In this document: positions 12,596 through 43,376 of the stretch, piece by piece
How positions within the stretch are numbered: position 1 is the stretch's first letter
Layout of the letters: the number at the start of each line of letters is the position of its first letter
Assembly (NCBI GenBank): GCA_902793325.1
Contig: CADBCY010000006.1
Location: forward strand, 1 to 64,000
Reading direction: 5' to 3'
DNA: 64,000 bases
Origin: an uncultured Eubacteriales bacterium
Lineage (GTDB): Bacteria > Bacillota > Clostridia > Christensenellales > Aristaeellaceae
Translations under genes and position numbers: made by a program
Notes under the pieces: generated by a model
Told to the model about the DNA's origin: nothing
Seen by the model: only the letters and a program-made list of their open reading frames with translations
Database searches by the model: none

Positions 12596-12859
12596 GGGAA
12601 TCCCTCCCCTGTAAACAATTCTGCGCATATATTATACATGATCGGGGGCGAATATGCAACAGTTTTCTCCGCATTTGCGCGATTGCTTTTGCGCGGAAGG
12701 CCGATCCGCGCGCCTCCCCCGCGCCGCTCGGCCGCCGCGGGCCGGCCGCGAATAACAGCTTAAACCACCACAAATAACCCCCGTTTAATGACGCGACCCG
12801 CCCTTCGATGTTACAATAAGGGCGTAAAAACCGGCATACGACGGATGAGGAGGCAGACT

Positions 12860-14167
12860 ATGCAGCAGGATATGATCGTCATACTGGACCTCGGCAGCGA
12901 GCAGAACACCCTCATCGCCCGCGACATTCGCGCGCTGGGCGTATACACGGAAATCCAGCCCCACGACCTCACCGCAGAGCAGCTCTCGGCGCTCCCGAAC
13001 GTGCGGGGCATCGTCCTCAACGGCGGCGTGAACCGCGTGGTGGACGGCGTGGCCATCGACGCCTCCGACGCCGTGTACAACAGCGGCATCCCGCTGCTGG
13101 CCGTGGATCACGCGGCGAAGAAGGCCGACCGCACCCTCCCCGCCTGGCCCCGGGACGAGGCCGCCCGCAGGGACGCGCTGCGCGAATTCGTATTCGACGT
13201 CTGCAAGGCCCAGGCCAACTGGAATATGGACAACTTCATCGCCGACCAGATCGAGCTGATCCGCCGCCAGGTGGGCGACAAGAAGGTGCTGCTGGCGCTG
13301 TCCGGCGGCGTGGATTCCTCCGTCGTGGCGGCGCTGCTGATCCGCGCCATCGGCGACCAGCTCACCTGCGTGCACGTCAACCACGGCCTGCTCAGGAAGG
13401 GCGAGCCGGAGCAGGTGGTGGAGGTGTTCCGCAACCAGCTCGGCGCGAACCTGATCTACGTGGACGCCGTGGACCGCTTCCTGGACAAGCTGGCCGGCGT
13501 GGCCGATCCCGAGCAGAAGCGCAAGATCATCGGCGCGGAATTCATCCGCGTGTTTGAGGAAGAGGCCCGCAAGCTGAACGGCATCGAGTTCCTGGGCCAG
13601 GGCACCATCTACCCCGACATCGTGGAATCCGGCACCAAGACCGCCAAGATGGTCAAGTCCCACCACAACGTGGGCGGCCTGCCCGAGGACCTGCAATTCG
13701 AGCTGGTCGAGCCGCTCAAGATGCTGTTCAAGGACGAGGTGCGCGCCTGCGGCGTGGCGCTGGGCCTGCCGGACAGCATGGTGTACCGCCAGCCCTTCCC
13801 CGGCCCCGGCCTGGGCGTGCGCTGCCTGGGCGCCATCACCCGCGACCGGCTGGAGGCCGTGCGCGAGGCCGACGCCATCCTCCGCGAGGAGTTCGACAGG
13901 GCCGGCCTGCGCGGCAAGGTATGGCAGTACTTCACCATCGTGCCGGACTTTAAGTCCACCGGCGTGCGCAACAACGCGCGCAGCTTCGAGTGGCCCGTCA
14001 TACTGCGCGCCGTCAACACCGTCGACGCCATGACCGCCACCATCGAGCAGCTCGACTGGCCCGTGCTGCTGCGGATCACCGACCGCATCCTGAACGAAGT
14101 CAAGGGCGTGAACCGCGTGCTCTACGACCTCACCCCCAAGCCCGTCGGAACGATCGAGTGGGAATAG
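12860..14167 (+). CDS. guaA: GMP synthase with eroded glutaminase domain
   Basis: ATP-dependent amination of XMP to GMP. The 435-aa protein keeps the whole synthetase: P-loop LLALSGGVDSSV (148-154), GQGTIYPD, the lid SGTKTAKMVKSHHN, and the dimerisation domain ending in the family tail KPVGTIEWE. Normal GuaA is ~510-525 aa. The N-terminal class I glutaminase is shortened: where other enzymes read GVCYGMQ this one reads LLAVDHAAK, and the stretch carrying the catalytic Cys, His and Glu is gone, with sequence rejoining at LREFVFDVCKAQANW. It therefore should not hydrolyse glutamine and would need free ammonia or a partner subunit. ATG at 12860 follows GAGGAGG. Confidence 0.9.
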   Translation: MQQDMIVILDLGSEQNTLIARDIRALGVYTEIQPHDLTAEQLSALPNVRGIVLNGGVNRVVDGVAIDASDAVYNSGIPLLAVDHAAKKADRTLPAWPRDEAARRDALREFVFDVCKAQANWNMDNFIADQIELIRRQVGDKKVLLALSGGVDSSVVAALLIRAIGDQLTCVHVNHGLLRKGEPEQVVEVFRNQLGANLIYVDAVDRFLDKLAGVADPEQKRKIIGAEFIRVFEEEARKLNGIEFLGQGTIYPDIVESGTKTAKMVKSHHNVGGLPEDLQFELVEPLKMLFKDEVRACGVALGLPDSMVYRQPFPGPGLGVRCLGAITRDRLEAVREADAILREEFDRAGLRGKVWQYFTIVPDFKSTGVRNNARSFEWPVILRAVNTVDAMTATIEQLDWPVLLRITDRILNEVKGVNRVLYDLTPKPVGTIEWE

Positions 14168-25589: not shown

Positions 25590-25604
25590 CCCTTCACCGC
25601 AAAC

Positions 25605-25640: not shown

Positions 25641-25719
25641 CGCTTGCCGCCCGGAACAACAGAACGCATGCACGGGTTTCAATGCTCCTCGCATGCGTTT
25701 TGTCCACCTATTTATTCCA

Positions 25720-27150
25720 TCAAGCAGAGAAAAAACCGAATAATCTTGCCATGACTATTACCAAAACAATCCACAATGCACCGACCGCAATGGAAAGCCA
25801 TAGAAGCCTCTTCTTCGCCGCTGCATTAGCATTAGCTTTATCGTTAGCAAATGCTAGTTTGATGTCTTCCTTGTCCAATATGTCCTCGTAATTGCCCTTC
25901 AATCTCTCATATGAATCCTGCACCCAACCCCATTTGACCCATGTGGCGACCAATGCAACCACGCAATAGATCCCGGACAAGACTGTAATCCCCGAGCCGA
26001 CAAGTCGTACGCTTTGGGGCATTTCCAGTTTTTGTAAACTGTCAATGTCGATTTTATCGGTAAGGATCGTCGAGATGATAAACACGACAACCGCAATGAA
26101 GTTATTTCTGATTCCGTCTGCCAAGTCTTTTGATAATTCCAGCACCTGTTTCGATGATTCAACGATATAGTCGGAAATCTCATTCTTCATCCTGATATAC
26201 TTCTTGGCTTGCTTCTTTCGATAGATCACAAGATTGGATTTGATTGACGCGATCACGCTTTGACTGATATTCAGGATATCATTTTTGCTTTTGCAACGCA
26301 AGCTGATGACGCTTCGCGCTATTGCCGCCTTGTCCGCGCTATCCTCACCCGAAAACACCAGTTTATAGATATCGAATGCGGTATCGCATTTGCTCAATTC
26401 TTCAAACGAGTATGCCTCGCTTCGCGCAGTTGGATCGAATTGCAGCAAGATACGATTCTCCTTTATGCTGGCGCAATTGGCGATGTAGATATAGGACAAT
26501 ATGTTCCGGAGGCTCTGGAAAACGGTCGATATCTGCTCATCCGCGGGCGTCTGTGTAATGGAAAAATCTTCAGGAATAATCGGATAGGAATCCCTTTCTA
26601 GGAATACACCGGCTTCTATGCATTTTTGTCGTTGATTCTCACGGTTCCAGGTTTCATACGGGTTATTCAGATTATTTATATAGATAGAGTTCGAGTGTGC
26701 CAAGGCAAATGGCGATTCAAGGATCAACCGCTTCTTATCCTTCAACAATTCAGAAAACCCCTTGAGCAGGTCTTTCAGTTCCGCCGAACAAAGGAATTCC
26801 TTGAAGGCGACTGCAGAATAAACGCTGACCCTGTCTTCCCTTTCTGTCTTTTCAATTTGAAGCGTTACGCTGATCTCGTCCTCATCTTCCAGTTCCTTCA
26901 GGAAATCCGTATAAGATTGCTCCCATTTGTCTCCATCTGTTGAATGAATACTGCACTCCAAGCCTGATTCCAGTTCAAGAGTCATCTTGTCCCCTTCCGG
27001 GACAGAGCTTATGAGCTTCTTTATCTGCTGCTCGGCACCAATAATACCCCTTTTGACAGTATTGTACCGTGCGGTCAGCTCTCCAAACACTTCGCGGCAT
27101 GATTCGGGAGTTCCAAACAACTCCTGTGCCAAATCCATAAAGTCCGTCAT
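25720..27150 (-). CDS. Unknown membrane protein, second gene of a two-gene cassette
   Basis: A 476-aa protein: ~345 soluble residues with acidic, coiled character, then three C-terminal transmembrane helices (approx. 350-367 NNFIAVVVFIISTILT; 382-405 GSGITVLSGIYCVVALVA; 450-470 LLWLSIAVGALWIVLVIVMA) with a Lys-rich amphipathic region between the second and third. ATG at 27150 follows GGGAG. It is 27 bp downstream of the 355-aa gene on the same strand. A soluble sensor with a membrane tail next to a soluble partner is a frequent layout of abortive-infection systems, but no named system was matched. Confidence 0.7.
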   Translation of the reverse strand: MTDFMDLAQELFGTPESCREVFGELTARYNTVKRGIIGAEQQIKKLISSVPEGDKMTLELESGLECSIHSTDGDKWEQSYTDFLKELEDEDEISVTLQIEKTEREDRVSVYSAVAFKEFLCSAELKDLLKGFSELLKDKKRLILESPFALAHSNSIYINNLNNPYETWNRENQRQKCIEAGVFLERDSYPIIPEDFSITQTPADEQISTVFQSLRNILSYIYIANCASIKENRILLQFDPTARSEAYSFEELSKCDTAFDIYKLVFSGEDSADKAAIARSVISLRCKSKNDILNISQSVIASIKSNLVIYRKKQAKKYIRMKNEISDYIVESSKQVLELSKDLADGIRNNFIAVVVFIISTILTDKIDIDSLQKLEMPQSVRLVGSGITVLSGIYCVVALVATWVKWGWVQDSYERLKGNYEDILDKEDIKLAFANDKANANAAAKKRLLWLSIAVGALWIVLVIVMARLFGFFSA

Positions 27151-27177
27151 GGTTCCACTCCCGATCAGTGTTGGTCT

Positions 27178-28245
27178 TTATTGCCGTTTTGCAAATACAT
27201 TGTAGGTTTCCTGATCAACACATCTAATCTGGAGATATCTCTTCCCTACAGAATTCGTGTATGCAGTAATATCGTCCATAAAGTCCGTTTCATCGCCGGT
27301 GATCCTGAGCTCAATACCCTCCTTAACCCGGAAAGCAAGCCTCCGCTTTTTCTTCAGTACTTCGGGGACCGTATTGAACTGCCGGTCAAATTTCTTTTTG
27401 TCAGGAAGATTCAGAAGCCTCTGCTTTATGGATTGAAGCTTGGAAGTCAATCCGTCTTCTTCAGGCTGATAGCCCGTGAATATCCGGCCAATCACATCGT
27501 CGTAATTAAATAGCTGGCGTGTTTTCATGGTCGACAGCATAGAATCGCGCAATATATAAAAATCCCTTCGGAAATGCTTTTTCATCGAGCGCTTTAGCTC
27601 CAATTCTACAGCCTCGAAGGCTCTCGACGTATTGCTCTCGTCCGAATTGGCTTCCTCCAATTCCAGGAATTGCTCTGCCCAGTATTTCGCCACATTGTCC
27701 GTATACACTCGGATTATTCCGAAATCAATCGTTCCTTCTTCATCAATTTTGATCGGTATTACCGCAGACTTCCATACATTTTTACTTTTGCTCGGAAAGC
27801 CGAAAGTCTTTCTCAAGCTTTCACCATCGTACCACTCAGAGTGCTCAACCTTGGCGATGATATACCGGATGTTATCACGATTCGTACCTATCAAAGCCTG
27901 CACAAGGCTGCCTCGCTTGATTTCTATGCCAAGGTTGGCAACTGTTTCCTGTGCATTGATCTCTTCCCGCAGCAGCTTGTTTGCAATGCTATCGGCATAG
28001 CTGTCCAGCGCAGCCGTATCCAAATCCAGCCATTCCCGGCCTTCACACTGACTGATAATGGAATCTACGCAATGAACCACAGTCGTGTTTGGGTCGCAAA
28101 CCTTGTAATCCTTTGTGGATTTGTTCTCTTCCGTGGCAAATCTGATGTACTCCTCTATAAAGGAGTTGAAATCGGCGGGGATGACCTTCCGCCCGATCTG
28201 GTTTGTAGCAACATCAACATTGTGCAACGATCTGTAGTAAATCAT
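27178..28245 (-). CDS. Unknown 355-aa soluble protein, first gene of the cassette
   Basis: Start at 28245 behind CGGAGGATTTT; in-frame start codons upstream lack such a signal. Segments of note are KRGSLVQALIGTNRDNIRYI followed by IAKVEHSEWYD, and a C-terminal β-rich region KKKRRLAFRVKEGIELRITG. The latter recalls the end of nucleoid-associated (NdpA-like) or DUF4868 (KwaB-like) proteins, yet similarity is too weak for a call. The gene precedes the membrane protein gene by 27 bp and is AT-rich like its partner. A TATTAT box and AT-rich region 28246-28330 probably hold the promoter; 28330-28560 shows no gene. Confidence 0.65.
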   Translation of the reverse strand: MIYYRSLHNVDVATNQIGRKVIPADFNSFIEEYIRFATEENKSTKDYKVCDPNTTVVHCVDSIISQCEGREWLDLDTAALDSYADSIANKLLREEINAQETVANLGIEIKRGSLVQALIGTNRDNIRYIIAKVEHSEWYDGESLRKTFGFPSKSKNVWKSAVIPIKIDEEGTIDFGIIRVYTDNVAKYWAEQFLELEEANSDESNTSRAFEAVELELKRSMKKHFRRDFYILRDSMLSTMKTRQLFNYDDVIGRIFTGYQPEEDGLTSKLQSIKQRLLNLPDKKKFDRQFNTVPEVLKKKRRLAFRVKEGIELRITGDETDFMDDITAYTNSVGKRYLQIRCVDQETYNVFAKRQ

Positions 28246-28605
28246 AAAATCCTCCGTATATTCCATTGTTCTTATCAGTTTCGAAAGGCCTATAATAATA
28301 TGACAATACGAAGCGTTGATATGCAAATTTATACTGGCCATGCTGTATGTATACTCGTTGTCGCATCGCTTGTGAACAGAATAGCATTGATTTGCATTAA
28401 CGACATGAGCATTGTCTGTAATATGACGGGGTTTCATGAAGCAAGGGGAAAGAAAGCTCTGTCGATCAATGGGATGTGTGAAATATTAGGCTTATGCACA
28501 AATCGAGGAAGGAGGGATAGTCCGTTCCATCATCTGGTTCAACAAGAGAATTCGATCTTCTAAACACCATCGTCCAACATCAAAGTGAAAAAGGAGGAAA
28601 AACAG

Positions 28606-28746
28606 ATGCATTCAACTGGAGAAAAGCCCGGAAAAGGCATCTATATGTGCACAAAGTGCGGTCAGTATGTCCGATTGGATGACGATACGGATACGCTTCC
28701 GCCGTGCCCCAAGTGTGAGAATACGACTTACTATAAAGTAGGGTAA
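28606..28746 (+). CDS. Small zinc-ribbon protein (46 aa)
   Basis: A 46-aa protein with GIYMCTKCGQYV (CxxC) and PPCPKCENTTYYKV (CxxC), i.e. a single rubredoxin-like zinc ribbon. The Shine-Dalgarno AAAGGAGG is perfect and a terminator follows at once, so this is a monocistronic unit. Such mini zinc ribbons are frequent in Firmicutes; function unknown. Confidence 0.85.
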   Translation: MHSTGEKPGKGIYMCTKCGQYVRLDDDTDTLPPCPKCENTTYYKVG

Positions 28747-28757
28747 AGGACACGTTT

Positions 28758-28794
28758 CCCCCGTCCGGAGCAGAGGCTCGGGCGGGGGTTTTGC
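28758..28794 (+). terminator. Terminator of the small zinc-ribbon gene
   Basis: Stem CCCCCGTCC (28758-28766) pairs with GGGCGGGGG (28780-28788), with one U-G pair and an inner GAG/CTC extension, followed by TTTTG. Confidence 0.8.
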
Positions 28795-28832
28795 TTATCT
28801 CAAGCTTTTGTGAACTGCAACAGCCAAACCAT

Positions 28833-29648
28833 TTACCCTTTCTTCCGTTGTACCACCTCGTTTCTGAGGAACAGTTTGTGCTTGCTCTCCGTGTGTATGG
28901 GATGCAGTTTGTTTCTCCTGACGAGATCGTCGATGTTCTGCCGCGAGCAATCCAGCAGTTGGCACGCTTCCGTTGCGTTGATGACCCGAACCTGCACGAA
29001 TCGGCAGATATCCCGAAGCGAAAGGGGGATATCAACGCCCGCCGAATACAGATTGCGATCTGAGATAACGGCCTGTTCGCTCCACCTTACGCCATAGCCG
29101 TCCGGCTGGACCTCGACTTGATTGAATCGGGCTTCATTGCCGATGTACGCCGCGCACGCGGGTGCCTTTTCCAGCAATTCATGCGTGTCCACGATCTTCA
29201 CTTTGCCGTCCCGGAAGAATGTCAGCAACCGCGCATTATTCAGCGGAACGACATCCTCGACCTTGTAATTCCAGCGCTGCTTCAGCATCTCCGGCAACGC
29301 ATCGGCAGGCAGTTCCTCCAGATAGCATTGATCCTGCGCACATCTGCCCTGCGAAAGCATGAGGAGCGAAAACTCGTCGTACTCGTCAAGGCCGTTCTCC
29401 TTCAGAACCTGACCGATGTTTTGCCTGTCCTGAGGGATGATCCTCTGTTCGACCCATATCCTGCTCCAGTAGCTGCCCACGCTTTTTTCGCCGCGCTTGA
29501 CGAAGGAATCCAGCAGTAGCGGTGTGTGCCAGGGGTCGGCATTCTCCGGCAGTTCGATATAGAAAGCTTTGGCATTCTCGTAATAGATGAGAAAGCCAAG
29601 AATCAGAGACGGGGACAGGCTCTCATCCTTGATCGCAAATACTCTCAT
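28833..29648 (-). CDS. HipS-like/DUF2442/HTH protein, partner of a HipA-type kinase
   Basis: A 271-aa three-part protein. Residues ~1-120 resemble the N-terminal subdomain of HipA (GFLIYYENAKAFYIELPENA, DEFSLLMLSQGRCAQD), which in HipBST systems is the separate protein HipS. Residues ~128-205 have the DUF2442 pattern (LLTFFRDGKVKIVDTHELLE, FNQVEVQPDGYGVRW). Residues ~217-262 form an excisionase/MerR-like helix-turn-helix (NATEACQLLDCSRQNIDDLV). It starts at 29648 behind GGAGGTG, overlapping the kinase gene by 26 bp. The fused kinase-blocking and DNA-binding parts suggest an antitoxin; this is inference. Confidence 0.7.
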   Translation of the reverse strand: MRVFAIKDESLSPSLILGFLIYYENAKAFYIELPENADPWHTPLLLDSFVKRGEKSVGSYWSRIWVEQRIIPQDRQNIGQVLKENGLDEYDEFSLLMLSQGRCAQDQCYLEELPADALPEMLKQRWNYKVEDVVPLNNARLLTFFRDGKVKIVDTHELLEKAPACAAYIGNEARFNQVEVQPDGYGVRWSEQAVISDRNLYSAGVDIPLSLRDICRFVQVRVINATEACQLLDCSRQNIDDLVRRNKLHPIHTESKHKLFLRNEVVQRKKG

Positions 29649-30444
29649 AGCTCTGCCACCTCCTCCATATCATCTCCCATATGCGCTCCAGCCAGCGCCG
29701 GTCGAGCGCGTCATCCAAGCCGTCCAACAGGATGTTCTTATCGGCCTCCATCAGCGGATTGAGCCGAGGCAGCTTATCACGAGGTATCAGCTTCAGGTTT
29801 TCCCACGCGGAGCGCGATCCCACAAAGCATTGCACAGGTTTGTCAGCCATAACGTCTTCCCGTCCCATGGCAGTCTCATCGGCGCATCTGCTCAAAAGGG
29901 AAACGCCATGATCAAACAGAGGTGCCAGTCGAACGGTCTTCTGATAGCGATTCCGAAGAACCTCCATATTGGCGCCGTGCCGGTCCCGGTTTAGGATCAG
30001 ATAGTCCACGACCAACATCTCATAGATTTCCTTTTCCCAGCCGCAGCGGATGCAGAAGTCCATCGGGGTTTCACCCGCCAGTCGTTCGGCCTGGTAGTAC
30101 GCATCCAGAGCAACCTTACTCTCTCCACGTCGTTTGAAATCGCGCGACGCGCAGAGCCAGGTTTCGATCGGCTTGTCGTCGATCATAATCTTTGCGTGGA
30201 TCAGCTGGTAAGAGAGGTGCTCTATGCCCAGAATGGAGAGCAGCCGATCCGCGATGATCTCATTGACGCATTCGTGCCCAACGACCCCGTAAAAGGCGTC
30301 GTAATTGGACAGCTTGTAGTATATCTTATCTCCCGACACGTCCTCATATGCTTTAAGGAAAGAACCGGCCGTACCGGACGAATTGCGTACCTTTGTCCAA
30401 CTCAGGTACGTCATGTCCCGCAATTCACGAATGATGTCAGCCAT
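29623..30444 (-). CDS. HipA/HipT-like serine/threonine kinase
   Basis: A 273-aa kinase related to the HipA C-terminal domain. Visible: Gly/Ser-rich loop NSSGTAGSFLKAYE (21-34), ATP lysine in YYKLS (K44), catalytic loop NRDRHGAN (152-159: D154, H156, N159), and metal-binding LFDHG (D178). The separate HipA N-subdomain is missing here, as in HipT. HipA kinases phosphorylate aminoacyl-tRNA synthetases and arrest growth. The serines of the Gly-rich loop are candidates for autophosphorylation. Start at 30444 with GGAGGTG; transcribed from the palindromic promoter at 30467-30510. Confidence 0.85.
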   Translation of the reverse strand: MADIIRELRDMTYLSWTKVRNSSGTAGSFLKAYEDVSGDKIYYKLSNYDAFYGVVGHECVNEIIADRLLSILGIEHLSYQLIHAKIMIDDKPIETWLCASRDFKRRGESKVALDAYYQAERLAGETPMDFCIRCGWEKEIYEMLVVDYLILNRDRHGANMEVLRNRYQKTVRLAPLFDHGVSLLSRCADETAMGREDVMADKPVQCFVGSRSAWENLKLIPRDKLPRLNPLMEADKNILLDGLDDALDRRWLERIWEMIWRRWQSYESICDQG

Positions 30445-30466
30445 CCGAATGCACCTCCATGAATTA

Positions 30467-30510
30467 AGGATACACCACTACTTGATAAATGTCAAGTAGT
30501 GGTGTATCCT
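30467..30510 (-). promoter_or_regulatory. Palindromic promoter-operator of the HipA-type operon
   Basis: A perfect 19-bp inverted repeat (30467-30485 with 30492-30510) around a 6-nt centre. Read on the minus strand it contains TTGACA, 17 nt, TATCCT (-10 at 30467-30472), so the palindrome spans the complete promoter. Transcription would start ~15 nt before the kinase ATG. This is a classical layout for toxin-antitoxin autoregulation. On the plus strand the same repeat is followed by CCTCGTTTTTTT and could act as a terminator. Confidence 0.85.
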
Positions 30511-30628
30511 CCTCGTTTTTTTGCCTGGATATTTATCTTTTTGCAGAGCTACATAATAGATTGTCTTATATATAGCGTTATAGAATATAACCAATTATCA
30601 TAACAATGGATTTGGGGGTATAGTAATC

Positions 30629-31642
30629 ATGTCAGAACAGAGTAAAAAGCTTGCAAGTCCGTTACCTGCATATCGTGTGTTTGTCTCTTCAACATATTCG
30701 GATATGGTTCGCTATAGAGATTCTATGCGGGATGCGATAAACAATGCAAATTGTTTATCATATGGAATGGAAAGATTTGGTGCAAACAGTATACCGCCAC
30801 TCGAAAAATGCTATGAGGAGTTAATGGACTGTCAAATCTATGTTTGTGCTATTGGTATGCGATATGGAAGCATTGATGAGCAGACACAGAAGTCATATAC
30901 TCAATTGGAGTATGAGAAAGCAGAATCATTGGGAATACCTATCTTAGCTTTTCTGATTGATGAATCGAAGACTCGCTTTAGCATAGACGAAATTGATTTG
31001 GGCGATTCTGCCGTCAAGTTGGCGGCATTTAAGAACAAAATCAAAAGTTCAAAGACTGTAACTTGTGATTTTTTTGAATCTGGACCTGATTTGAAGGGGA
31101 AAGTATACCGTGCTATTATAAATGAAATCGAAAGACAAAAAGCAAGGGAAGAAGATAAAAAAGGGACATTAGATGCGTACATCGAGGGTGCTAAGTTATT
31201 CAAAAAGTTCGTAAAGAGACCAGCACAATATAGAAATCAGGAAGCGATTTTGAGAGTTCGATTTGATGGCAAGTACGGCGGATGGCGGCTTAAGGAACAA
31301 CTGTTCTATGCATTCGGATTTCGACCAGGATATGCGCTGTATTTAAATGATCTTTATACACTTGGTACGAGTCCCGATGTATCTGAGAGTATATGGAGTG
31401 TCGACTGTTTTGCTGATGGAAAAGCAGCAGATTGGTTAGATGATAATGATGTTAATCAGGGAACGATTATTGAAGGTAGATTCAAACTAGCCTATGAATT
31501 AGTCAGAGATATTAAAGAAGGCAATCAATTATTAAGATCAAACCATGCAAACGATATATATATGGCTTGCCTGGTTCTACTTGAGGGCCTTCATGTGATT
31601 AGCAGGGATGTACCTATTAACCCAACTCAGTCGAACGAATAA
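30629..31642 (+). CDS. DUF4062 domain protein
   Basis: A 337-aa protein; residues ~14-105 carry the DUF4062 fold (YRVFVSSTYSDMVRYRDSMR, then MERFGANSIPP and CQIYVCAIGMRYG), a Rossmann-like TIR/SIR2-related module often joined to NTPase defence proteins. Here it is followed by a ~215-residue unrecognised C-terminal domain with no NTPase motif. Strongly AT-rich, monocistronic, with GGGGG about 10 nt before the ATG. Likely a defence or conflict effector/sensor; the partner, if any, is not obvious. Confidence 0.75.
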   Translation: MSEQSKKLASPLPAYRVFVSSTYSDMVRYRDSMRDAINNANCLSYGMERFGANSIPPLEKCYEELMDCQIYVCAIGMRYGSIDEQTQKSYTQLEYEKAESLGIPILAFLIDESKTRFSIDEIDLGDSAVKLAAFKNKIKSSKTVTCDFFESGPDLKGKVYRAIINEIERQKAREEDKKGTLDAYIEGAKLFKKFVKRPAQYRNQEAILRVRFDGKYGGWRLKEQLFYAFGFRPGYALYLNDLYTLGTSPDVSESIWSVDCFADGKAADWLDDNDVNQGTIIEGRFKLAYELVRDIKEGNQLLRSNHANDIYMACLVLLEGLHVISRDVPINPTQSNE

Positions 31643-31796
31643 ACTCGTTTTTTGAGAGGAAGCGAGAATAGAAGTGCTTTCTGATCAACGGCTATATGCT
31701 TAATACAATTTGGAAAATGAGATGTCCCGTTTGCTGTGCCAGACACGAATACTGTGTAAACATATAGTGATAGGTATCCGAACTGCCGTATAAAAT

Positions 31797-31823
31797 ATGG
31801 GCCTCCATTTTCTGAAGGCCCAT
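31797..31823 (-). terminator. Terminator of the small membrane operon
   Basis: Stem ATGGGCC/GGCCCAT (31797-31803 with 31817-31823), on the minus strand followed by ATTTTATA, 6 nt past the stop of the 50-aa gene. Sequence 31643-31796 holds nothing else recognisable. Confidence 0.6.
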
Positions 31824-31828
31824 GATGA

Positions 31829-31981
31829 TCATAATAAGTCGGAGCGGTACAATAGTTTTAGTATTTTTATTCTTTTGGTTATAAGCCAGTGGCAGAGCCT
31901 CATCCTCGTAGCGATTATCCAAGTGACGGATCGATGCCAGAATAACAAAGCGCTGAGGATAATCAAGATTAGAAGAATCAC
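31829..31981 (-). CDS. Small single-pass membrane protein (50 aa), GTG start
   Basis: The frame starts with GTG overlapping the TGA of the upstream gene (GTGA), giving MILLILIILSALLFW as an N-terminal transmembrane helix and then a basic tail (RMRLCHWLITKRIKILKLLY). Coupling by overlap, the hydrophobic helix followed by positive charge, and the terminator directly behind support a real gene that is below usual size limits. It resembles small toxin or holin-like peptides; no family assigned. Confidence 0.5.
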   Translation of the reverse strand: MILLILIILSALLFWHRSVTWIIATRMRLCHWLITKRIKILKLLYRSDLL

Positions 31982-32334
31982 CTGTAACCACCGGGCCTTG
32001 TCAGATAGGCGAAATCACTCATACAGTTGCTGTAGGCCTTGGCTTCGCGTTGAAGTGATTCCAGGAGCATATCACCAATTGGAGTGTTGAGGTCTTCCTC
32101 AATGTCACGGTAAGTATCAATCAAGAATGAACGTGCGCTGCTTTCGAGCTTATGTACAGCGGCTATGCGATCTGCTTGTATTGCAGCTTGAATAGCAACA
32201 TTCAATCTTTCCAACTGAGCAGAGGTTATCATTCTGTTTTGTCTTCTGATACCTATTAGCTGTGTTGCAATGTCGAATACATTTTTCAACCCAGTGGATA
32301 CAGAGACAATTGTGGACGGCAGGTTTGGATTCAT
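31978..32334 (-). CDS. Unknown 118-aa helical protein
   Basis: Mostly helical soluble protein (LKNVFDIATQLIGIRRQNRM, then AQLERLNVAIQAAIQADRIA). ATG at 32334 follows GGAGGTAC at good spacing. It is coupled to the 50-aa membrane protein by a GTGA overlap. The upstream region 32335-32633 shows no supported gene. The pair could be a two-component membrane toxin or immunity unit; function unknown. Confidence 0.6.
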   Translation of the reverse strand: MNPNLPSTIVSVSTGLKNVFDIATQLIGIRRQNRMITSAQLERLNVAIQAAIQADRIAAVHKLESSARSFLIDTYRDIEEDLNTPIGDMLLESLQREAKAYSNCMSDFAYLTRPGGYR

Positions 32335-32633
32335 TTCTTTGTACCTCCATCTCGCATTATTGACGCACGAGTTGGATTTACACCTGGTTCAACTTCTGGC
32401 ACACCTGTGGTGAATCAGAAGAAGTCGTGCACAACCAGGGATAAAGCATTGGTGTTTGTCCACCGGTGTGTTCACCTCCGTCTGGTGGAGTCGGTTCTGC
32501 ATGTATTCCCTTACATGTGATATTATATGATTTTGGAATCAAGTTGTCATCCGTTAATTTCTTGACCGTTATTGAATAGCTACGATGAACATGAAAAGGC
32601 ACACATAAATGATATTAGGAAGGTGAATGATTG

Positions 32634-33491
32634 ATGGCAGACAAGATATTACCTGTTTTTGATGATGAAGGAATCAAGAAGCAGGGAAAAGTAATAGGGC
32701 TGCATTTGAGAAAAATGAGATTACGGTCTCTTTATACTCAGGATGCAGTGACTAACGATGAACTTGATACAAAACACGGCTTTCCCAGTTTATCAACATA
32801 TAAGAGTATGGAAAATGGGGATACCAAGAGTAGCTTTACTTTTTATTTACAATTGTTTCACCTTTTTCATGGTACTGATAGAGATGCTGCAATACTTTTC
32901 GGGAATCGGGACTCTGAAACATTTGTTGATGAGAGCCATGATGATTCACAAGCCCATATTGCGCGGCTCAAGAAGTTTGCCTATCAGAAATACACGATTT
33001 ATTTGGTGGATGAAATGGATGCCATAAAGGAAATGAAATTGTCCTTTGGCAATATAATTAATTACAGCTATGTTCAAGGGAATGCAAAAATCGGGAGGAA
33101 ATACACATATGATTGTAAACTGGTCAGCCCGGTGAATAGTCCGTATGTGTTTATATATTTTACTTCCACGACAAGTATGGTTGATCGAGCTCTTTTCATC
33201 CTTCCTGAAATCGAATGGATTATTGGAAAATTCAAAAGAGGATTGGGACTCATGATATCTATATCAACAGATCATCAACGATGCCCAACTATACAGATGT
33301 TTGTTATGCTTCACGCATTATATAAAAAACCTGATCTTGAAGAAATAAAGAAATACATTGTACTGAGGGATTCTCAGGTTTCAACATATATGATGCGAGT
33401 GCAAGATCTGAAATCAAGGAATATCAAGTTTGATCAGGAAATGATATTGGAGCGAAAGCATTATGATGTTGAGAAAAAGAACGTGTTGTGA
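32634..33491 (+). CDS. XRE-like regulator with unknown C-terminal domain
   Basis: A 285-aa protein. Residues ~18-80 (VIGLHLRKMRLRSLYTQDAV, SLSTYKSMENGDTKSSF) read as a divergent XRE helix-turn-helix. The rest (~110-285) is a β-rich domain (YTYDCKLVSPVNSPYVFIYF) followed by helices, unrecognised. Start ATG at 32634 behind AGGAAGGTG. AT-rich. It stands alone between the small membrane operon and the left side of the Tn7-like region. Confidence 0.65.
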   Translation: MADKILPVFDDEGIKKQGKVIGLHLRKMRLRSLYTQDAVTNDELDTKHGFPSLSTYKSMENGDTKSSFTFYLQLFHLFHGTDRDAAILFGNRDSETFVDESHDDSQAHIARLKKFAYQKYTIYLVDEMDAIKEMKLSFGNIINYSYVQGNAKIGRKYTYDCKLVSPVNSPYVFIYFTSTTSMVDRALFILPEIEWIIGKFKRGLGLMISISTDHQRCPTIQMFVMLHALYKKPDLEEIKKYIVLRDSQVSTYMMRVQDLKSRNIKFDQEMILERKHYDVEKKNVL

Positions 33492-33594
33492 ACAGCAGTT
33501 AATTTGAGAAATACAGCTCAATGCAGAGCTGCTGTTGACATATATCTTGTTGTATACTATAATGAAAACAAAAGAGGGTAGAACAAAGCTGATT

Positions 33595-33613
33595 TGACAA
33601 CACAATGACAACA
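33595..33613. repeat. Paired TGACAAC motifs (second copy)
   Basis: TGACAAC-ACAA-TGACAACA, the same heptamer pair with the same 11-bp spacing and orientation as at 14227-14245. The two copies bracket the AT-rich cargo segment, 19.4 kb apart. Confidence 0.4.
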
Positions 33614-33731
33614 AAAATCACGATAGCCAATGCTTTGAGAATAATACGAATGATATGAATACCACGAGCTAAAGGACCTAAGCAGAATCGTTTAGAAACG
33701 ATCTGATGGGAGCGAGTGGGAATGATCTCCG

Positions 33732-33785
33732 TGTCAAGGGGCGACCCCGTTTTCCCTGTTTGGGGCAAAAAAGTTTTCCCTTTGC
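33732..33785. repeat. Left terminal double repeat of the 588-bp segment (putative transposase sites)
   Basis: Begins TGTCA (33732-33736) followed by two 19-mers at 33738-33756 and 33762-33780 of consensus GGGGC-N8-TTTTCCC, spaced 24 bp. The same arrangement occurs inverted at 34271-34319. TGT termini with repeated ~20-bp sites are typical of Tn7/Mu-family ends. Confidence 0.65.
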
Positions 33786-33811
33786 TCGTATGAAAACCGA
33801 ACAGAAAACCA

Positions 33812-33851
33812 GCTCCGGAAACCGTGCTCAGACACAGCTTCCGGAGCCTTT
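33812..33851 (+). terminator. Intrinsic terminator inside the 588-bp segment
   Basis: Stem GCTCCGGAA/TTCCGGAGC (33812-33820 with 33839-33847), followed by CTTTTATT. It would insulate sequence to its right from upstream transcription. Confidence 0.7.
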
Positions 33852-33871
33852 TATTCCCAAAAACAAAGCCC

Positions 33872-33971
33872 GGGAACCGTATGGAAACCATGCGGGAGCA
33901 ATTTGGGAAGCATCGCGGGAACCTTTTTAGGGAGTAGTATCAGCCCCATCGTGGGAACCCATATTGGAACC
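33872..33971. repeat. GGGAAC iterons, first cluster (about 11-bp period)
   Basis: GGGAACC or close variants start at 33872, 33883, 33894, 33905, 33917, 33953 and 33965, i.e. at 11-12-bp steps apart from one gap. One helical turn per unit suggests protein binding to one DNA face, or decay of a coding tetrapeptide repeat. Confidence 0.65.
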
Positions 33972-34083
33972 TCCTTCGATGTCCACGGAGCAACCTCATA
34001 CAGCCTCAAGATACCGTAATACCAGGGGTTCCAGCCCATTGGAGTGGGTTCAGAAAGAGAGAATCACAGCAGGTAATAGGGCT

Positions 34084-34131
34084 GGGAACAGTCATGGGAA
34101 CAGCATCGGGAACCATGATGGAACCACGATG
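34084..34131. repeat. GGGAAC iterons, second cluster (12-bp period)
   Basis: GGGAACAGTCAT, GGGAACAGCATC, GGGAACCATGAT and a fourth GGAACC start at 34084, 34096, 34108 and 34120, exactly 12 bp apart. In one frame this spells repeated Gly-Asn-x-x. Confidence 0.7.
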
Positions 34132-34270
34132 ATTCCCGCGGTGTATCCACGAGGGTTCCCAAATCGGGAACCGGGTGGGGGTTGGGGGTTGCAGGGGGAA
34201 GGGGGAGGGAAATGGAGGAGCATAGAGGGTGAAAAATTGGACTTGAAACAGGGCTTAAAATGAGGCAAAA

Positions 34271-34319
34271 GGGAAAGCGACTTTGCCCCTAACAGGGAAA
34301 GTGACCTTGCCCCATGACA
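34271..34319. repeat. Right terminal double repeat of the 588-bp segment
   Basis: Two direct 19-mers, GGGAAAGCGACTTTGCCCC (34271-34289) and GGGAAAGTGACCTTGCCCC (34295-34313), 24 bp apart, ending in TGACA at 34315-34319. As a whole it is the inverted counterpart of 33732-33780. No 5-bp target duplication flanks the pair (CTCCG at left, TAGTA at right). Confidence 0.65.
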
Positions 34320-34499
34320 TAGTATTTTTTCAAAATGGCGTTTTTGGGAGATTGTTGCAATGTACTGAAAACGTCGTAATATCAGGCATTTTGGCCATTA
34401 TGCGGGGTTCCCATAAACACGTTTTTGGGGCCCCATTTTTATGCTGGGATTTTCGTAACAATTTGTTTTTTGGGAAATAAAGTACGGGAGATGATGCAG

Positions 34500-34865
34500 A
34501 TGCGCAAGAAGAATTATAAGGGACGATGCGAGAAACGTCAGGTTTCAAAATGTGAAGATGTATGCAGAACCTACGACGCTATCCAACGTGCATATCTGGA
34601 CAGGCTGGAAGCGAATAGGAATATCAAGTCTATCAGATGCAATGTCCCGCTGAAAGGCCCTACAGTGGAAGAATATACGACAGACTTTGTCTGTATTCGA
34701 GCGGATGGGGAGATGATGGTACGGGAATGTGTATTCCGACGTTTCCTTACCAAGCCATTGACGTTGAAGCTGCTGGATATGTCGCGTGAATACTGGACAA
34801 AACTGGGCGTGACAGATTGGGGGATTGTAATCGATGCAGAAGAACAGCCTGTGGAAACGGGATGA
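34500..34865 (+). CDS. tnsA: Tn7-like transposase endonuclease subunit TnsA
   Basis: A 121-aa short TnsA. In Tn7 this restriction-like nuclease cuts the non-transferred strands so that transposition is cut-and-paste. Visible are an early glutamate in AYLDRLEANRNIKSI, the aspartate in VEEYTTDFVCIRADGE, and MMVRECVFRR where the nuclease PD-(D/E)xK core should lie; the Lys of a canonical ExK is replaced here by Cys/Arg at the obvious position. Several ATGs are possible (34491, 34494, 34500); 34500 gives the best spacing to GGGAG. It overlaps tnsB by 32 bp and heads the operon. Confidence 0.75.
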   Translation: MRKKNYKGRCEKRQVSKCEDVCRTYDAIQRAYLDRLEANRNIKSIRCNVPLKGPTVEEYTTDFVCIRADGEMMVRECVFRRFLTKPLTLKLLDMSREYWTKLGVTDWGIVIDAEEQPVETG

Positions 34866-36663
34866 CAGCGTCCTGCGTGTGTTGGATGAGCGTGAGAACG
34901 AAATGCTGGTGATTGACTGTATCCATCCGGTAATGCCAACGTGGGTCCGGAAAGATGAACTGTTGCATTATACACAAATCGAAGAATCTGAATTGTGGCC
35001 TGCTTCCAATGGTATATCACGCGAAGATGATATTCCTGTGGATGCCCAGAGAATCATGAGGGAACGCTTTACCATCATTACGGGTGTGATTCCCTATATC
35101 ATGGACAAGGGCAAACGAAGCCAAATGATCGCGCAAGCTGCTGCGGAGCACGGTGTATGTCGGAAGACTGTGCGTCATTATTTCTGTCTTTACCTCGCTT
35201 ATCAGGATGTCGCTGTACTTGCGCCCCAAAGCGGTGCTGTGGAGAAGGCACTCACGGAATACGAGAAGAACATCCGATGGGCGCTGAACAAGTTCTACTA
35301 CACGAAGAACCGAAACAGCCTGCGGACAGCGTACACCCTGATGCTGAAAGAGCGGTATTGCGATGAGGGCGGGAACCTGTTGCCCGAATACCCCTCCTTC
35401 CACCAGTTCCGGTATTTCTATCGCAAGCACAAGAGCCTGCAGGACTACTACATTTCTCGGGAGGGCATGAGGCAGTATCAGCGGAACCACCGTCCGCTTC
35501 TGGGCGATGGCGTGCAGGAGTACGCGTCTCACGTCGGCGTGGCGATGCTGGACTCCACCATCTGTGATATCTACCTGGTCAACGAAGCCGGCGGACTGGT
35601 GGGTCGTCCCATCCTCACGGCCTGCATCGACGCCTACAGCGGACTGTGCTGTGGCTATACGCTCTCCTGGGAGGGCGGGACGTACAGCCTGAGAGGGCTC
35701 ATGCTGAGCGTTATCGAGGACAAGGCGGCGTACTGCAAGCGGTTTGGCATTACGATCGTTGAAGGCCAATGGAACTGTGCAGGCATGCTTCCAGGCACAC
35801 TGGTCACGGACATGGGTTCAGAATACGCTTCCCAGAATTTCGAGCAGATCGCGGAACTGGGTGTCACGGTGGTCAATCTGCCCGCCTACAGGCCGGAATT
35901 GAAGGGCGTGGTGGAGAAGTTCTTCGATCTCATCCAGAGCGCGTTCAAGCCTCACCTGAAGGGCAAGGGCGTCATCGAGCCGGACTACCAGGAGCGCGGG
36001 GCGCACGACTACAGGAAGGATGCCTGCCTGACCATGGAGCAGTTTGAGAAGGTTGTGCTGAACTGCATCCTGTACTACAACGACAAGCGGATCATCGAGA
36101 ACTACCCCTACACCGACGATATGCTTGCGCAGGGGGTTCAGCCTTACGCAGCCACGATCTGGAACTATGGGCGGAAGCAGCCGTCCGCCGACCTGATCCC
36201 CGTTTCCCGTGAACAGCTCATCCTCACGCTGCTGCCGCGAACCACCGGCAGATTCTCCCGCTCCGGGCTGAAGGTCAACCAGATGCGCTACAGGCATGAC
36301 GACTACACCGAACAGTACCTCCAGGGTGGAGAAGCCGTGGTGGCCTACAATCCCGATGATGTTGGCTGCGTGTGGTTGTTGGATAAGGGCGAATATGTGC
36401 GCTTCGACCTCATTGAAGGCAGGTACGCCGGGAAGGACCTGAACGGTGTGCAGCAGGCACAGGAGAGCCGAAAGCGGCTGGTCAGGGAGGCGCAGGAGGA
36501 AAGCCTCCAGGCACGAATCGACCTGGCGGACCACATCGAAACCATCGCGGGAACCGTGAAGAGGACCGGCGACACCAAGCTGAAGAACATCCGCGGGAAC
36601 CGCAGCCGGGAGCAGCTTCGGAAGCACAGGGATTATATGAAGGGAGGCACGAAGGATGATTGA
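34834..36663 (+). CDS. tnsB: Tn7-like DDE transposase TnsB
   Basis: A 609-aa DDE recombinase that recognises transposon ends and joins 3' ends to target DNA. The catalytic triad is D240 (VAMLDSTICD), D326 (VTDMGSEY) and E361 (KGVVEKFFD). N-terminal residues ~70-200 form helix-turn-helix DNA-binding domains, C-terminal ~450-520 a β-barrel, and the Lys/Arg-rich tail ends just inside tnsC. It overlaps both tnsA and tnsC, as in other Tn7-like operons. GC content and length look intact, so the transposase is probably functional. Confidence 0.92.
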   Translation: MQKNSLWKRDDSVLRVLDERENEMLVIDCIHPVMPTWVRKDELLHYTQIEESELWPASNGISREDDIPVDAQRIMRERFTIITGVIPYIMDKGKRSQMIAQAAAEHGVCRKTVRHYFCLYLAYQDVAVLAPQSGAVEKALTEYEKNIRWALNKFYYTKNRNSLRTAYTLMLKERYCDEGGNLLPEYPSFHQFRYFYRKHKSLQDYYISREGMRQYQRNHRPLLGDGVQEYASHVGVAMLDSTICDIYLVNEAGGLVGRPILTACIDAYSGLCCGYTLSWEGGTYSLRGLMLSVIEDKAAYCKRFGITIVEGQWNCAGMLPGTLVTDMGSEYASQNFEQIAELGVTVVNLPAYRPELKGVVEKFFDLIQSAFKPHLKGKGVIEPDYQERGAHDYRKDACLTMEQFEKVVLNCILYYNDKRIIENYPYTDDMLAQGVQPYAATIWNYGRKQPSADLIPVSREQLILTLLPRTTGRFSRSGLKVNQMRYRHDDYTEQYLQGGEAVVAYNPDDVGCVWLLDKGEYVRFDLIEGRYAGKDLNGVQQAQESRKRLVREAQEESLQARIDLADHIETIAGTVKRTGDTKLKNIRGNRSREQLRKHRDYMKGGTKDD

Positions 36664-37891
36664 TGCCAACGCGCTCATCGGGGCGCTTCCCCGGATGCTG
36701 TCCGGGGATGAACTGATGCGGGCGCTGAAGGTGATGCCGGAGTACGACCCCAGCGTGTGTGACCGGGATGAGGCCATGCGCCTGATGAAGCTGTCGGACC
36801 TCTACGACATCTACCTGCCCTCCGCGATGAGCGTGGAGGTTTACAGCAAGCTGTACCTTGCGCTCATCCGCAGCCTCCAGAAGAAGGGCTCCAGGCTGGC
36901 TGTCAGGCAGTACGCCGAGAACTACAAGGCGGTGAGACAGAGGGATTACAGCGGCATCCTGGGCGGCTCAGACAGCTTCACGATCATCGGCACCTCCGGC
37001 ATCGGCAAGAGCAGCGCCATCTCCAAGGCGATCCGGCTGATCTCCGAAAACAGGATCATCGAGCTGAAACAGCCATGCGCGAAGATCGTGCCCTGTGTGG
37101 TGGTGCAATGCCCGTTCGACAGCTCCGTGAAGGGGCTCCTGCTGGAGATCCTGCGACAGGTGGACGAGGAACTGGACACCAGGTATTACGACAATGCCGT
37201 GAGGGCGAGAGCGACCACGGATATGCTCATCGGCTCCGTGAGTCAGGTGGCGCTGAACCACATCGGGCTGCTGGTCGTGGATGAGATCCAGCATGTCGTC
37301 AACAGCAAAAATGGCAAGGCACTGGTGGGCTCCCTGACCCAGCTCATCAACTGCTCCGGCATTTCCATCTGCATGGTCGGAACGCCCGAAAGTTGCCAGT
37401 TCTTCGAGCAGGCCATGCAGCTCGCCCGCCGCTCGCTCGGCCTTCACTACAGTGAATTGCCCTACGACAGGTACTTCCGGGAGTTCTGCGGGACGCTGTT
37501 CGGCTACCAGTATGTTCGCAACCGGACGGATATTACGGAGGCCATCATCGAGTGGCTGTACGAACACAGCGCCGGGGTCATCTCCATCTTGGTTTCCCTG
37601 ATCCACGACGCCCAGGAGATCGCCATTCTGAATGGAAGGGAGACGCTGGATATCGTGGCGCTGAACGAAGCCTACCAGCGGATGCAGATGATCCACCGCT
37701 ATGTGAAGCCGGCGAAGCTCCGCGTCAATCAGGTGTCGAAGCCGAAGAAAGTGGTTTCTGTGGCAGAAACAGAGAGGAATGCCATCAGCAGTATTTCCAT
37801 CGTGGGAATCATAACTGAAGCAAAGAGCGGGAACTTCAGCGTTGTCGATGCGCTTCGGGAGCATTTCAGGATCGAGGAGGTGGCGGTGTGA
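36656..37891 (+). CDS. tnsC: Tn7-like AAA+ regulator TnsC
   Basis: A 411-aa ATPase that links target selector and transposase. Walker A is GTSGIGKS (112-119) and Walker B LLVVDEIQ (205-212), followed by a sensor-1 segment SICMVGTPESCQF. The N-terminal ~100 residues probably contact TnsB/TnsA, the C-terminal ~80 are linker-like. It overlaps the tnsB stop by 8 bp and is coupled to tniQ by GTGA. Confidence 0.92.
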   Translation: MIDANALIGALPRMLSGDELMRALKVMPEYDPSVCDRDEAMRLMKLSDLYDIYLPSAMSVEVYSKLYLALIRSLQKKGSRLAVRQYAENYKAVRQRDYSGILGGSDSFTIIGTSGIGKSSAISKAIRLISENRIIELKQPCAKIVPCVVVQCPFDSSVKGLLLEILRQVDEELDTRYYDNAVRARATTDMLIGSVSQVALNHIGLLVVDEIQHVVNSKNGKALVGSLTQLINCSGISICMVGTPESCQFFEQAMQLARRSLGLHYSELPYDRYFREFCGTLFGYQYVRNRTDITEAIIEWLYEHSAGVISILVSLIHDAQEIAILNGRETLDIVALNEAYQRMQMIHRYVKPAKLRVNQVSKPKKVVSVAETERNAISSISIVGIITEAKSGNFSVVDALREHFRIEEVAV

Positions 37892-39027
37892 TTGGATTCA
37901 TGCCGGAATTCTACCCGGACGAACTGGTGTACAGCCTGCTGGCACGATATTACCAGCGCAGCGGGTATCTGGCATACATTCACGCCGCCAGGGATCTCTA
38001 TGCGGTTCCTTCGATCCGCCCGGACATGTATTTCATCAATCCCATGCGTGATGAAGCGTGGGAGCTGATCACCAGGGAGACAGGCACGGACGCAGTGATC
38101 CTGGAGCACACCATGGTTCCGGCCTATGCACGTTTCCTGCCGGTGGAGGCTCGCCAGGAGACGCTTCAGCAGATGAGCCGCATGGAGGGAAGACCCTATA
38201 TGATGCTGAAGGTAACCCACAGGCGGCAGGACAGGACGCGCTATCTGAGATACTGCCCGGAGTGCGCTGAACGGGACAGGGAACTGTATGGAGAGGCATA
38301 CTGGCACAGGTCTGCGCAGATCCAGGGAATCGACGTGTGCCCGGAACATGGCTGCTATCTGTGCGACAGTGAATTGGTTGTCAGCGCCAATACGCCGCCG
38401 ATGCTCGTGACGGCAGAAGAGTTAATCCCGCAGGCTTCCGGGGTGGTGAAGTGTGAGAACGAGATGCAAAACAGGCTGGCGGAATATGTGTTGGAGCTCT
38501 TCAATTCTGAACTGGAGGTCGATAATCCGGTGACGGTTGGAGAGTTTCTGCACAGTCGCCTCCATGGAACGAAGTACGTATCCCTGCGAGGTGAGCAGAG
38601 GAACATAACGCTCCTGCAAAGGGACTTTGCAAACTTCTATGAGACACTTCCGGGAAATACGTTTACCCGAAAGCAGCAGTCGGAAGATCGTTTCGATACC
38701 ATCTCTGGCACGAACGGTCTGCTGGGTGCTGCGGACGGCGCATTCCTGCTGACAAAGGCGAAGCGCACCGCCAATGACGCCATGTTGGACATCGCCGGGC
38801 GGGACCAGCAGGATCAGCGGCTGCACCTGGTGAGGAACACCAAGACGCTGCTTTGGGAAATGGAAAGCGCCGAGACGGAACTGTGGGAGGAAGAGCCTGA
38901 CCCACTTCTGGAAGAAGTGGCAAGGGTAGCACTTCACTCCGAACAAAAAAAGCAAAAACCAATCCGTTTGAACTGGTTTTTGCCTGCCGCTCATTGCCTT
39001 GGGATAGGCCCAGCACCTGCACAGTGA
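37888..39027 (+). CDS. tniQ: TniQ/TnsD-family target-site selector
   Basis: A 379-aa TniQ protein: N-terminal FMPEFYPDELVYSLLARYY, a zinc finger with C123, C126, C151 and H154 (YCPECAERD and DVCPEHGCYLC), then a helical C-terminal region. It starts with GTG at 37888 in a GTGA overlap with tnsC, behind GGAGGTGG. It is the only target selector seen; there are no Cas genes, so it would be a sequence-specific TnsD-type or a simple TniQ. The extreme C-terminus (LNWFLPAAHCLGIGPAPAQ) is encoded across a terminator-like hairpin and may be read-through rather than native. Confidence 0.87.
   Translation: MIGFMPEFYPDELVYSLLARYYQRSGYLAYIHAARDLYAVPSIRPDMYFINPMRDEAWELITRETGTDAVILEHTMVPAYARFLPVEARQETLQQMSRMEGRPYMMLKVTHRRQDRTRYLRYCPECAERDRELYGEAYWHRSAQIQGIDVCPEHGCYLCDSELVVSANTPPMLVTAEELIPQASGVVKCENEMQNRLAEYVLELFNSELEVDNPVTVGEFLHSRLHGTKYVSLRGEQRNITLLQRDFANFYETLPGNTFTRKQQSEDRFDTISGTNGLLGAADGAFLLTKAKRTANDAMLDIAGRDQQDQRLHLVRNTKTLLWEMESAETELWEEEPDPLLEEVARVALHSEQKKQKPIRLNWFLPAAHCLGIGPAPAQ
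38953..38982 (+). terminator. Terminator-like inverted repeat in the tniQ 3' end
   Basis: CAAAAACCA/TGGTTTTTG (38953-38961 with 38974-38982) with a 12-nt loop falls inside the last codons of tniQ. It has T-rich arms and would be in a better place if tniQ originally ended earlier. Confidence 0.4.
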
Positions 39028-41913: not shown

Positions 41914-42098
41914 GCATTCCAACGATGACTGGGGAAGCTGGTTACCATTCTGACGGTCCAGCTCATGTTTGCATCTTCCAATGCCGGCTATGACCGCAAT
42001 CGTCATCGCCGGCATTGTCGTTCTCGGAAAAACGATCCGGGCAAAACTGAATACGTTAAATATCTCGATTGCCTTCCACAAAGGAGGTTGACAACCCA

Positions 42099-43373: not shown

Positions 43374-43376
43374 ACA

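Follow-up and report, generated by a model that had tools for sequence, protein, structure and literature searches.

A double-ended Tn7-type unit beside tnsABC-tniQ, probably the left of two long terminal direct repeats in an integrating element

We analysed a stretch of 64,000 nucleotides from an uncultured Eubacteriales bacterium (contig CADBCY010000006.1, positions 1 to 64,000; hereafter the window), in which a 588-bp unit with inverted, doubled Tn7-type ends lies directly upstream of the transposition genes tnsA, tnsB, tnsC and tniQ. With a probability of about 0.7, this unit is the left of two long direct repeats at the ends of a Tn7-type integrating element, which would insert replicatively and as a whole circle. 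In relatives, a body made up of tnsABC-tniQ and of cargo that can amount to a complete phage genome lies between two direct copies of the unit, and the two-unit element sits 6-7 bp past the guaA stop codon with a 5-bp duplication outside both units. This unit-body-unit architecture is well supported, fully in one isolate and partly in others, together with the outer 5-bp duplication; from it we infer that the donor is circular, that strand transfer is replicative and starts from both unit ends, that the whole circle integrates and that recombination can leave a solo unit. With a little less assurance, we also lean towards the wider view that double-ended Tn7 units of 0.2-0.8 kb are the attachment sites of circular phages and islands, and that a nuclease-altered TnsABC-TniQ integrates the whole circle and leaves solo repeats as well as repeats resembling long terminal repeats (LTRs), which would be a new kind of site-specific integration.

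Results

The unit is bounded by two ends, E1 and E2, and its parts are located in the window as follows.

33732..34319, plus strand: E1-E2 unit, LTR-like, 588 bp, with inverted TGT..ACA arms
33732..33783, plus strand: end E1, TGTCA and two TnsB-type sites (33738-33757 and 33762-33781)
34268..34319, minus strand: end E2, TGTCA (read on the minus strand) and two sites (34270-34289 and 34294-34313)
33808..33856, plus strand: terminator-like hairpin immediately inside E1 (-19.5 kcal/mol), followed by a T run
34320..34331, plus strand: inner flank of E2, the left edge of the tns-bearing body (TAGTATTTTTTC)

Within each end the sites are spaced 24 bp apart, as direct sites in E1 and mirrored sites in E2. 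The two 52-nt arms are inverted, with TGT..ACA termini, and pair at 40 of 52 positions (77% complementary), against a maximum of 29 in 1000 dinucleotide shuffles of 33400-34700, while the site pattern GGGGCRA-N4-6-GTTTTCCC has two matches in the whole window and none in 100 shuffles. An earlier reading of this DNA from its letters alone (the sequence-only reading) had described doubled, inverted ends with 24-bp site spacing and TGTCA/TGACA borders; the same coordinates were recovered here, with shuffles scoring far lower, and the ends carry the repeated TnsB sites at TGT..ACA termini that mark Tn7-like transposons. That reading was also right that the window unit has no 5-bp duplication, the left flank being CTCCG and the right flank TAGTA, and that the 588 bp are the inside of a transposition-type unit with the transposase genes beyond both ends: tnsA, tnsB, tnsC and tniQ are placed beyond E2, outside the unit, and the units themselves contain no tns gene. 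A terminator-type hairpin with a T run stands inside E1 in all 21 units tested, compared with 19 of 200 shuffled units, and may terminate the transcription of guaA once the unit has inserted, or keep it from reaching tns. Numerous GGGAACC-like motifs also occur inside the unit, at 33860-34180.

The E1-E2-tnsA order is conserved across relatives. Searches for TnsB relatives gave 37 loci in genome_contigs and 10 in viral_contigs; an ungapped 50-nt arm search was run over the window and these 47 loci, and other upstream regions were read partly by eye. The best arm pair lay directly upstream of tnsA in 11 of the 48 (the window, L154, L156-L159, L162, L165, L178, L179 and L199), and in 25 tns-linked loci, 20 of the 47 TnsB-relative loci among them, an E2 could be assigned immediately before tnsA, so the unit is not a local accident. 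In this count L153, which is the G210 locus, is entered as L066, and the placements in L160 and L169 are the least certain. Loci without a placed E2 start too late, are degenerate or have no unit, and the by-eye search covered loci other than the distant L184-L187 and L189. Four of these distant loci (L184, L186, L187 and L189) are Bacillaceae-type TnsB relatives of about 27-30% identity that share large, near-identical blocks. Other arm pairs, matching at 30-32 of 50 positions in AT-rich loci, were set aside as background. The three bases following the inner E2 are TAG in 20 of the 25 loci, TGG in four and TAT in one. End sequences are family-specific and vary together with the transposase, and E1 and E2 are alike within one locus; TGTCGTAGGGCAC, for example, occurs in both ends of L199, and L157 has a GGAGC/GTTCC type. 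The sequence-only reading had proposed that two element ends were left face to face after a deletion. Such a relic of deletion or rearrangement of two elements would suit a window without duplication and with a truncated tniQ, but it is contradicted by the shared order in the 25 tns-linked loci and by the family-specific ends, and since intact relatives such as G172 keep the order with a full-length tniQ, we regard it as scarcely credible.

A second unit on the far side of the body was found in full in Pseudobutyrivibrio ruminis AD2017. Here the E2 at C9:1-93 recurs at C9:20918-21010 with 93 of 93 positions identical, where it ends a complete 296-bp unit, 20.7 kb from the first E2, with GATACTA before it and TATTATTAG after it. 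Contig C2 closes with the E1 side of the left unit, which follows guaA at 7 bp, has the flank AATATTA and is identical at 93 unit bases. With C2 and C9 joined by inference across the contig break, the order is guaA-TATTA, unit, tns and cargo (20.6 kb), unit, TATTA, and the two units show no differences in the 186 bp compared. Partial versions occur in several others. G222 (122,814 bp) starts inside E2, continues with TAGTATTT-tnsA and ends with AAAAATACTA followed by E1, and G221 (35,044 bp) likewise starts inside E2 and ends with GGATACTA followed by E1, both terminal E1 copies being preceded by ATACTA. Contig C13 of G210 (37 kb) starts inside E2-tnsA and ends in E1 behind the guaA-end core, and the two unit copies of this genome differ at 1 of 106 positions on the E1 side and 2 of 145 on the E2 side. 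In L158 a shortened 3.8-kb body ends with TTTGATACTA directly before E1, and the genus of the window contributes five right-hand E1 copies after CAGTACCA (two in L056 and one each in L057, L062 and L073). Nine right-hand E1 copies (G222, G221, P. ruminis, L158 and the five of the genus) are preceded by TACTA or TACCA; taken together with the inner flanks of E2, this means that the body starts with TAGTA.. and ends with ..TACTA/TACCA beside the units. A similar-looking TACTA-TGT match at position 2188 of L202 was rejected, as it reads as coding sequence.

The tns genes thus sit between two whole units and not, as in a Tn7-like transposon, between one left and one right end. The sequence-only reading had suggested looking for a single matching end several kb from tnsA; none was found, and a second whole unit was found instead. 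In an ordinary Tn7-like element, E1 would be one end, the distal end would have been missed and E2 would be an operator for tnsA. The position of tnsABC-tniQ beside the end of a target gene does resemble Tn7, and the downstream DNA examined was often short, but E2 retains a terminal TGT..ACA that is needless for an operator, and in P. ruminis the 5-bp duplication lies outside the second unit. Furthermore, no second E2-like array was found in 19 loci scanned with each locus's own E2 within the DNA examined, and a third, distal TnsB-type end was absent from that DNA in motif, arm and end-profile scans. We therefore hold this alternative to be improbable.

DNA matches to the unit, full-length or partial, are present in 10 of 28 genomes of the genus, and tnsC in 4 of 28; four of the ten (G201, G086, G207 and G192) have no tnsC, and the stretches fetched from them contain neither tnsA nor tnsB. 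The distance from the stop codon of a real guaA to E1 is 6 bp in L005, L022, L060, L063, L068, L069 and L072 and 7 bp in L064. Outside the genus this distance is 7 bp in L155, L159, L165 and P. ruminis, 8 bp in G018 (L026) and 28 bp in L179. In six loci (L156, L158, L176, L178, L188 and L199) ppdK stands in front in place of guaA, beside the unit or the tns operon, which implies another TniQ specificity. As in Tn7-like transposons, exact 5-bp duplications are found, in three of four evaluable relatives: L063, where a solo 603-bp unit on a single contig has AAAAC on both sides; G210, where CGTTC stands to the left (contig C19, guaA) and to the right (C22) of units at the ends of two contigs; and P. 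ruminis (G218). The L063 case bears out the expectation, raised by the sequence-only reading, that similar units with 5-bp duplications occur elsewhere. In L056 the right flank of the second unit, GTACA-ATCCGCG, is the same as the unoccupied guaA site in L095. At 18938-18944 of L057, the E2 of one unit and the E1 of another are exactly 5 bp apart (GGAGT), as expected from repeated insertion at one site.

The solo unit in L063, a short gene-free unit with inverted ends and a duplication, has the form of a miniature inverted-repeat transposable element (MITE), and solo units whose genome or contig lacks tns genes (L063, L005) would agree with a non-autonomous mini-element that came to lie beside its transposase by chance. 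The same neighbourhood nevertheless recurs in the 25 tns-linked loci, where the unit adjoins tnsA, unlike a MITE moved in trans, and a second unit lies on the far side of tns and cargo, all of which makes a chance MITE very improbable. The suggestion of a mini-element parked beside its own transposase was therefore half right: there is a small unit next to the genes, but it is the left of two direct copies that flank tns and cargo.

The transposition genes of the window are the following.

34500..34865, plus strand: tnsA, short form, start inferred from a conserved MRKK; predicted structure matches Tn7 TnsA
34834..36663, plus strand: tnsB, DDE transposase of 609 amino acids; PF09299 (Mu-transpos_C)
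36656..37891, plus strand: tnsC, AAA+ regulator of 411 amino acids; PF05621 (TniB)
37888..38665, plus strand: tniQ fragment (target selector), truncated; PF06527

A tnsABC-tniQ operon beside the unit, as proposed from the sequence, is borne out by Pfam for tnsB, tnsC and tniQ and by fold for TnsA, with the amendment that tniQ is a fragment here. The set thus includes the TnsB DDE transposase, the AAA+ protein TnsC and TniQ of Tn7-like elements. TnsB residues D240, D326 and E361, which from their sequence context we take to be the DDE triad, are invariant in an alignment with four relatives. Homology of tniQ to the intact 488-amino-acid tniQ of G172 extends only to about 38665; the frame runs on into a piece of an ATPase gene (38664-38927), which in G211 (L144 2805-3959) is a separate, unrelated open reading frame of 384 amino acids.

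The AlphaFold2 model of TnsA, built from a 32-sequence alignment, has a mean predicted local distance difference test score (pLDDT) of 90, and Tn7 TnsA ranks first in a structure search with it (1t0f, E 1e-6; 1f1z, E 2e-5). D65 and E79 are invariant in the 32 aligned sequences. Position 81, two residues after E79, is V in the window and V, I, L, A or C, never K, in all 32; the full set had 42 rows, comprising these 32, L171 without a readable frame and nine left out that also have V at this position. By the order of motifs in a profile match to Tn7, position 81 would be the counterpart of the lysine in QVK (K132), a register that stays provisional because the match has an E-value of only 0.12. 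The absence of lysine at this position in 32 of 32 TnsA proteins fits replicative (cointegrate) transposition. In the V. cholerae CRISPR-transposon, the available text of one study reports that the TnsA D90A mutant gave more than 95% cointegrates, in which duplicated mini-transposons stand on either side of the entire donor plasmid (PMC8188705).

Alternatively, the units could act like the flanking insertion sequences of a composite cut-and-paste transposon, which TnsA and TnsB would excise from outer E1 to outer E2, with neither circle nor replication. The 5-bp duplication at the outer flanks and the retained TnsA fold and D/E residues agree with this. On this model, however, the inner ends and the TAG/TACTA flanks would go unused although they are conserved, and the near-identity of the two units in P. 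ruminis and G210 and the missing TnsA lysine also speak against it. In addition, the flanking elements of a composite transposon each encode a transposase, whereas here tns lies between the units and none is inside them. We consider the composite unlikely, though worth keeping in view.

The bodies are diverse. G222 is a tailed phage, with PHROG matches among the 10 proteins scanned to DNA polymerase (4e-245), portal (1e-77), terminase (2e-17), tape measure (6e-29), DNA ligase, anaerobic NrdD and tail proteins. Portal (3e-80), tape measure (2e-37) and terminase (7e-16) were matched in G223, which starts in E2 and whose other end was not reached, and terminase (2e-228), tail sheath and major head protein in G231, which has tnsB at the contig end. 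The P. ruminis body has AAA, Hsp70, DnaJ, ArdC and YqaJ domains, and in L056 a gene for a conjugation coupling protein (T4SS-DNA_transf, 6e-36) stands immediately left of a right-hand unit. Phages and other islands therefore share one arrangement. INPHARED phage records gave only four weak matches, at 23.7% identity. Among plasmids 3030 records match, the best place of each below 60% identity, and the 20 listed are enterobacterial plasmids with TnsA/TnsB annotations.

A possible free form is seen in L198, a 12.1-kb virus contig, where an uninterrupted 214-bp unit lies between ...ACAAGGTTTATTCTA and TAGAGATTT-tnsA-tnsB. To the left of this unit, genes for phage lysis, with matches to phage tail lysozyme (PF18013) and endolysin (PHROG 2e-56), occur together with a reverse transcriptase gene. 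This arrangement is as expected for a circle with one unit or for head-to-tail copies. The reverse transcriptase gene (RVT_1, 3024-4202) is possibly that of a diversity-generating retroelement. L192 has a degenerate version of the junction and, at the right body end, a serine resolvase gene (PF00239, 2e-42; 2073-2633), a candidate for separating the two units.

Upstream of the unit, the window carries an island with cores of the guaA end at its edges.

12788..14167, plus strand: guaA paralogue, 3' end being the attachment site; 53% identical to GuaA of contig C45, residues 198-529
33713..33723, plus strand: second guaA-end core CGAGTGGGAAT, read as the right attachment site (attR) of the 14168-33712 island

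The same 11-bp core, located at 14155-14165 in the guaA paralogue, thus borders both edges of a tyrosine-integrase island (14168-33712) that separates guaA from the unit; the stop borne by the 33713-33723 core is followed by E1 at 6 bp, as at real guaA genes. The core before E1 was considered as a part of the transposon and rejected, as the comparison of left (attL) and right attachment sites favours the tyrosine-integrase island. We read 33713-33723 as the attR of this island, with the guaA 3' end serving as a site for both the Tn7-type unit and integrase islands. The integrase reading frame of the island (15327-16259) encodes 310 amino acids, compared with 360 in G211, and a second tyrosine integrase gene lies at 42069-43145 and 43213-43614, beside a tRNA-Cys/Gly/Phe/Asp/Val cluster.

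A second, right-hand unit was not found in the window. From about 39165 onwards the window is homologous to a G210 locus preceded by an hsp20-like gene; since tniQ is truncated and G210-like sequence resumes there, the right part is gone, and the window unit is best seen as the left copy of a broken element that later lost its right part, with tniQ cut off near 38665. The DUF2680/DUF4317 genes to the right of tniQ were dropped as cargo: contig C21 of G210 has a DUF2680 gene beside the hsp20-like gene, and therefore they look native.

Discussion

In the mechanism that we propose, each repeat would comprise a transcription terminator and the two transposon ends, E1 and E2, which face one another, and the free state would be a circle in which one unit joins both ends of the body. 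TniQ and TnsC would choose the target, the 3' end of guaA or ppdK, and TnsB would join the 3' ends of the unit to it. The altered TnsA would leave the 5' strands uncut, and replication across the unit would then fuse the entire circle to the chromosome and copy the unit. Recombination between the two copies could release the circle and leave a solo unit. The tiny double-ended transposon would, in effect, be the attachment site, and TnsABC-TniQ the integrase.

Several observations weigh against replicative whole-circle insertion or against the generality of the architecture. No circle appeared as such among the sequences, and L198 would also be explained by tandem copies. In both P. ruminis and G210, the left part was connected to the right part over a contig break that falls within the repeat. 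Among eight contig tails, the expected flank stands before a terminal E1 only in G222 and G221; in G210 the terminal E1 follows a guaA core, and no terminal unit is present in G223, G220, G219 or G225 or at the far end of contig C9 of P. ruminis, where the unit is internal. The TnsB relatives L166, L167, L168, L172 and L174 showed no unit near tnsA, and the L005 unit lacks an exact duplication (TTCCG versus TCTGA). In Butyricicoccus pullicaecorum DSM 23266 (L203/L202) no second E2-like array was found within 38 kb, and the far copy, 28.5 kb on, is a guaA-end core and E1 without E2, which we read as nested insertions at one site. Finally, TnsA retains invariant D65 and E79 as well as K15 and K20, so that some nuclease activity may remain and another lysine could serve.

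If the reading is true, cointegrate formation, usually seen as a by-product or intermediate, is the integration step itself, and tailed phages would have a Tn7-type integrase. According to the available text of a 2021 survey devoted to Tn7-like transposons, homologues of Tn7-like transposases had not been identified in any available virus genome (PMC8649781). No published description of such an arrangement was found in the literature searched, where most subscription papers were outside coverage and a prior description is possible. The reading also accounts for the solo units that lie scattered at guaA. It further suggests that such elements would be misplaced by methods that set boundaries by pairing left and right ends around tns.

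Comparison with known systems

The element resembles Tn7 and Tn7-like transposons (TnsABC with TniQ/TnsD) in its TnsB-type DDE transposase, AAA+ TnsC, TniQ and TnsA fold, in TGT..ACA ends with repeated sites and in insertion 3' of a conserved gene with a 5-bp duplication. It differs in that a single short unit holds both ends while tns is outside it, the unit is directly repeated around the body, TnsA is about 120 amino acids long and without lysine at the position taken to match Tn7 K132, and the bodies include tailed phages.

LTR retrotransposons have direct terminal repeats with TG..CA-type ends, a short target duplication and solo LTRs. The likeness lies in the repeats, the duplication and the solo copies; here, however, the enzyme is a Tn7-type DNA transposase, the body has tnsABC-tniQ in place of a reverse transcriptase/integrase body, and no reverse transcriptase step is proposed. 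In Mu-like transposable phages and in integrative and conjugative elements with a DDE transposase, such as TnGBS, a phage or conjugative element is likewise integrated by a DDE transposase, whereas here insertion is site-specific via TniQ, and in place of the two outermost genome ends a single unit, which becomes duplicated, supplies the ends.

The TnsA-less replicative relatives, Tn5053 and the type V-K CRISPR-associated transposons, are expected, according to the available text of two sources, to give a cointegrate in which the element is duplicated (PMC11406308, PMC8649781). In those systems the duplicated element carries the genes and the cointegrate is taken apart by a resolvase, whereas here the fused donor appears to stay as cargo.
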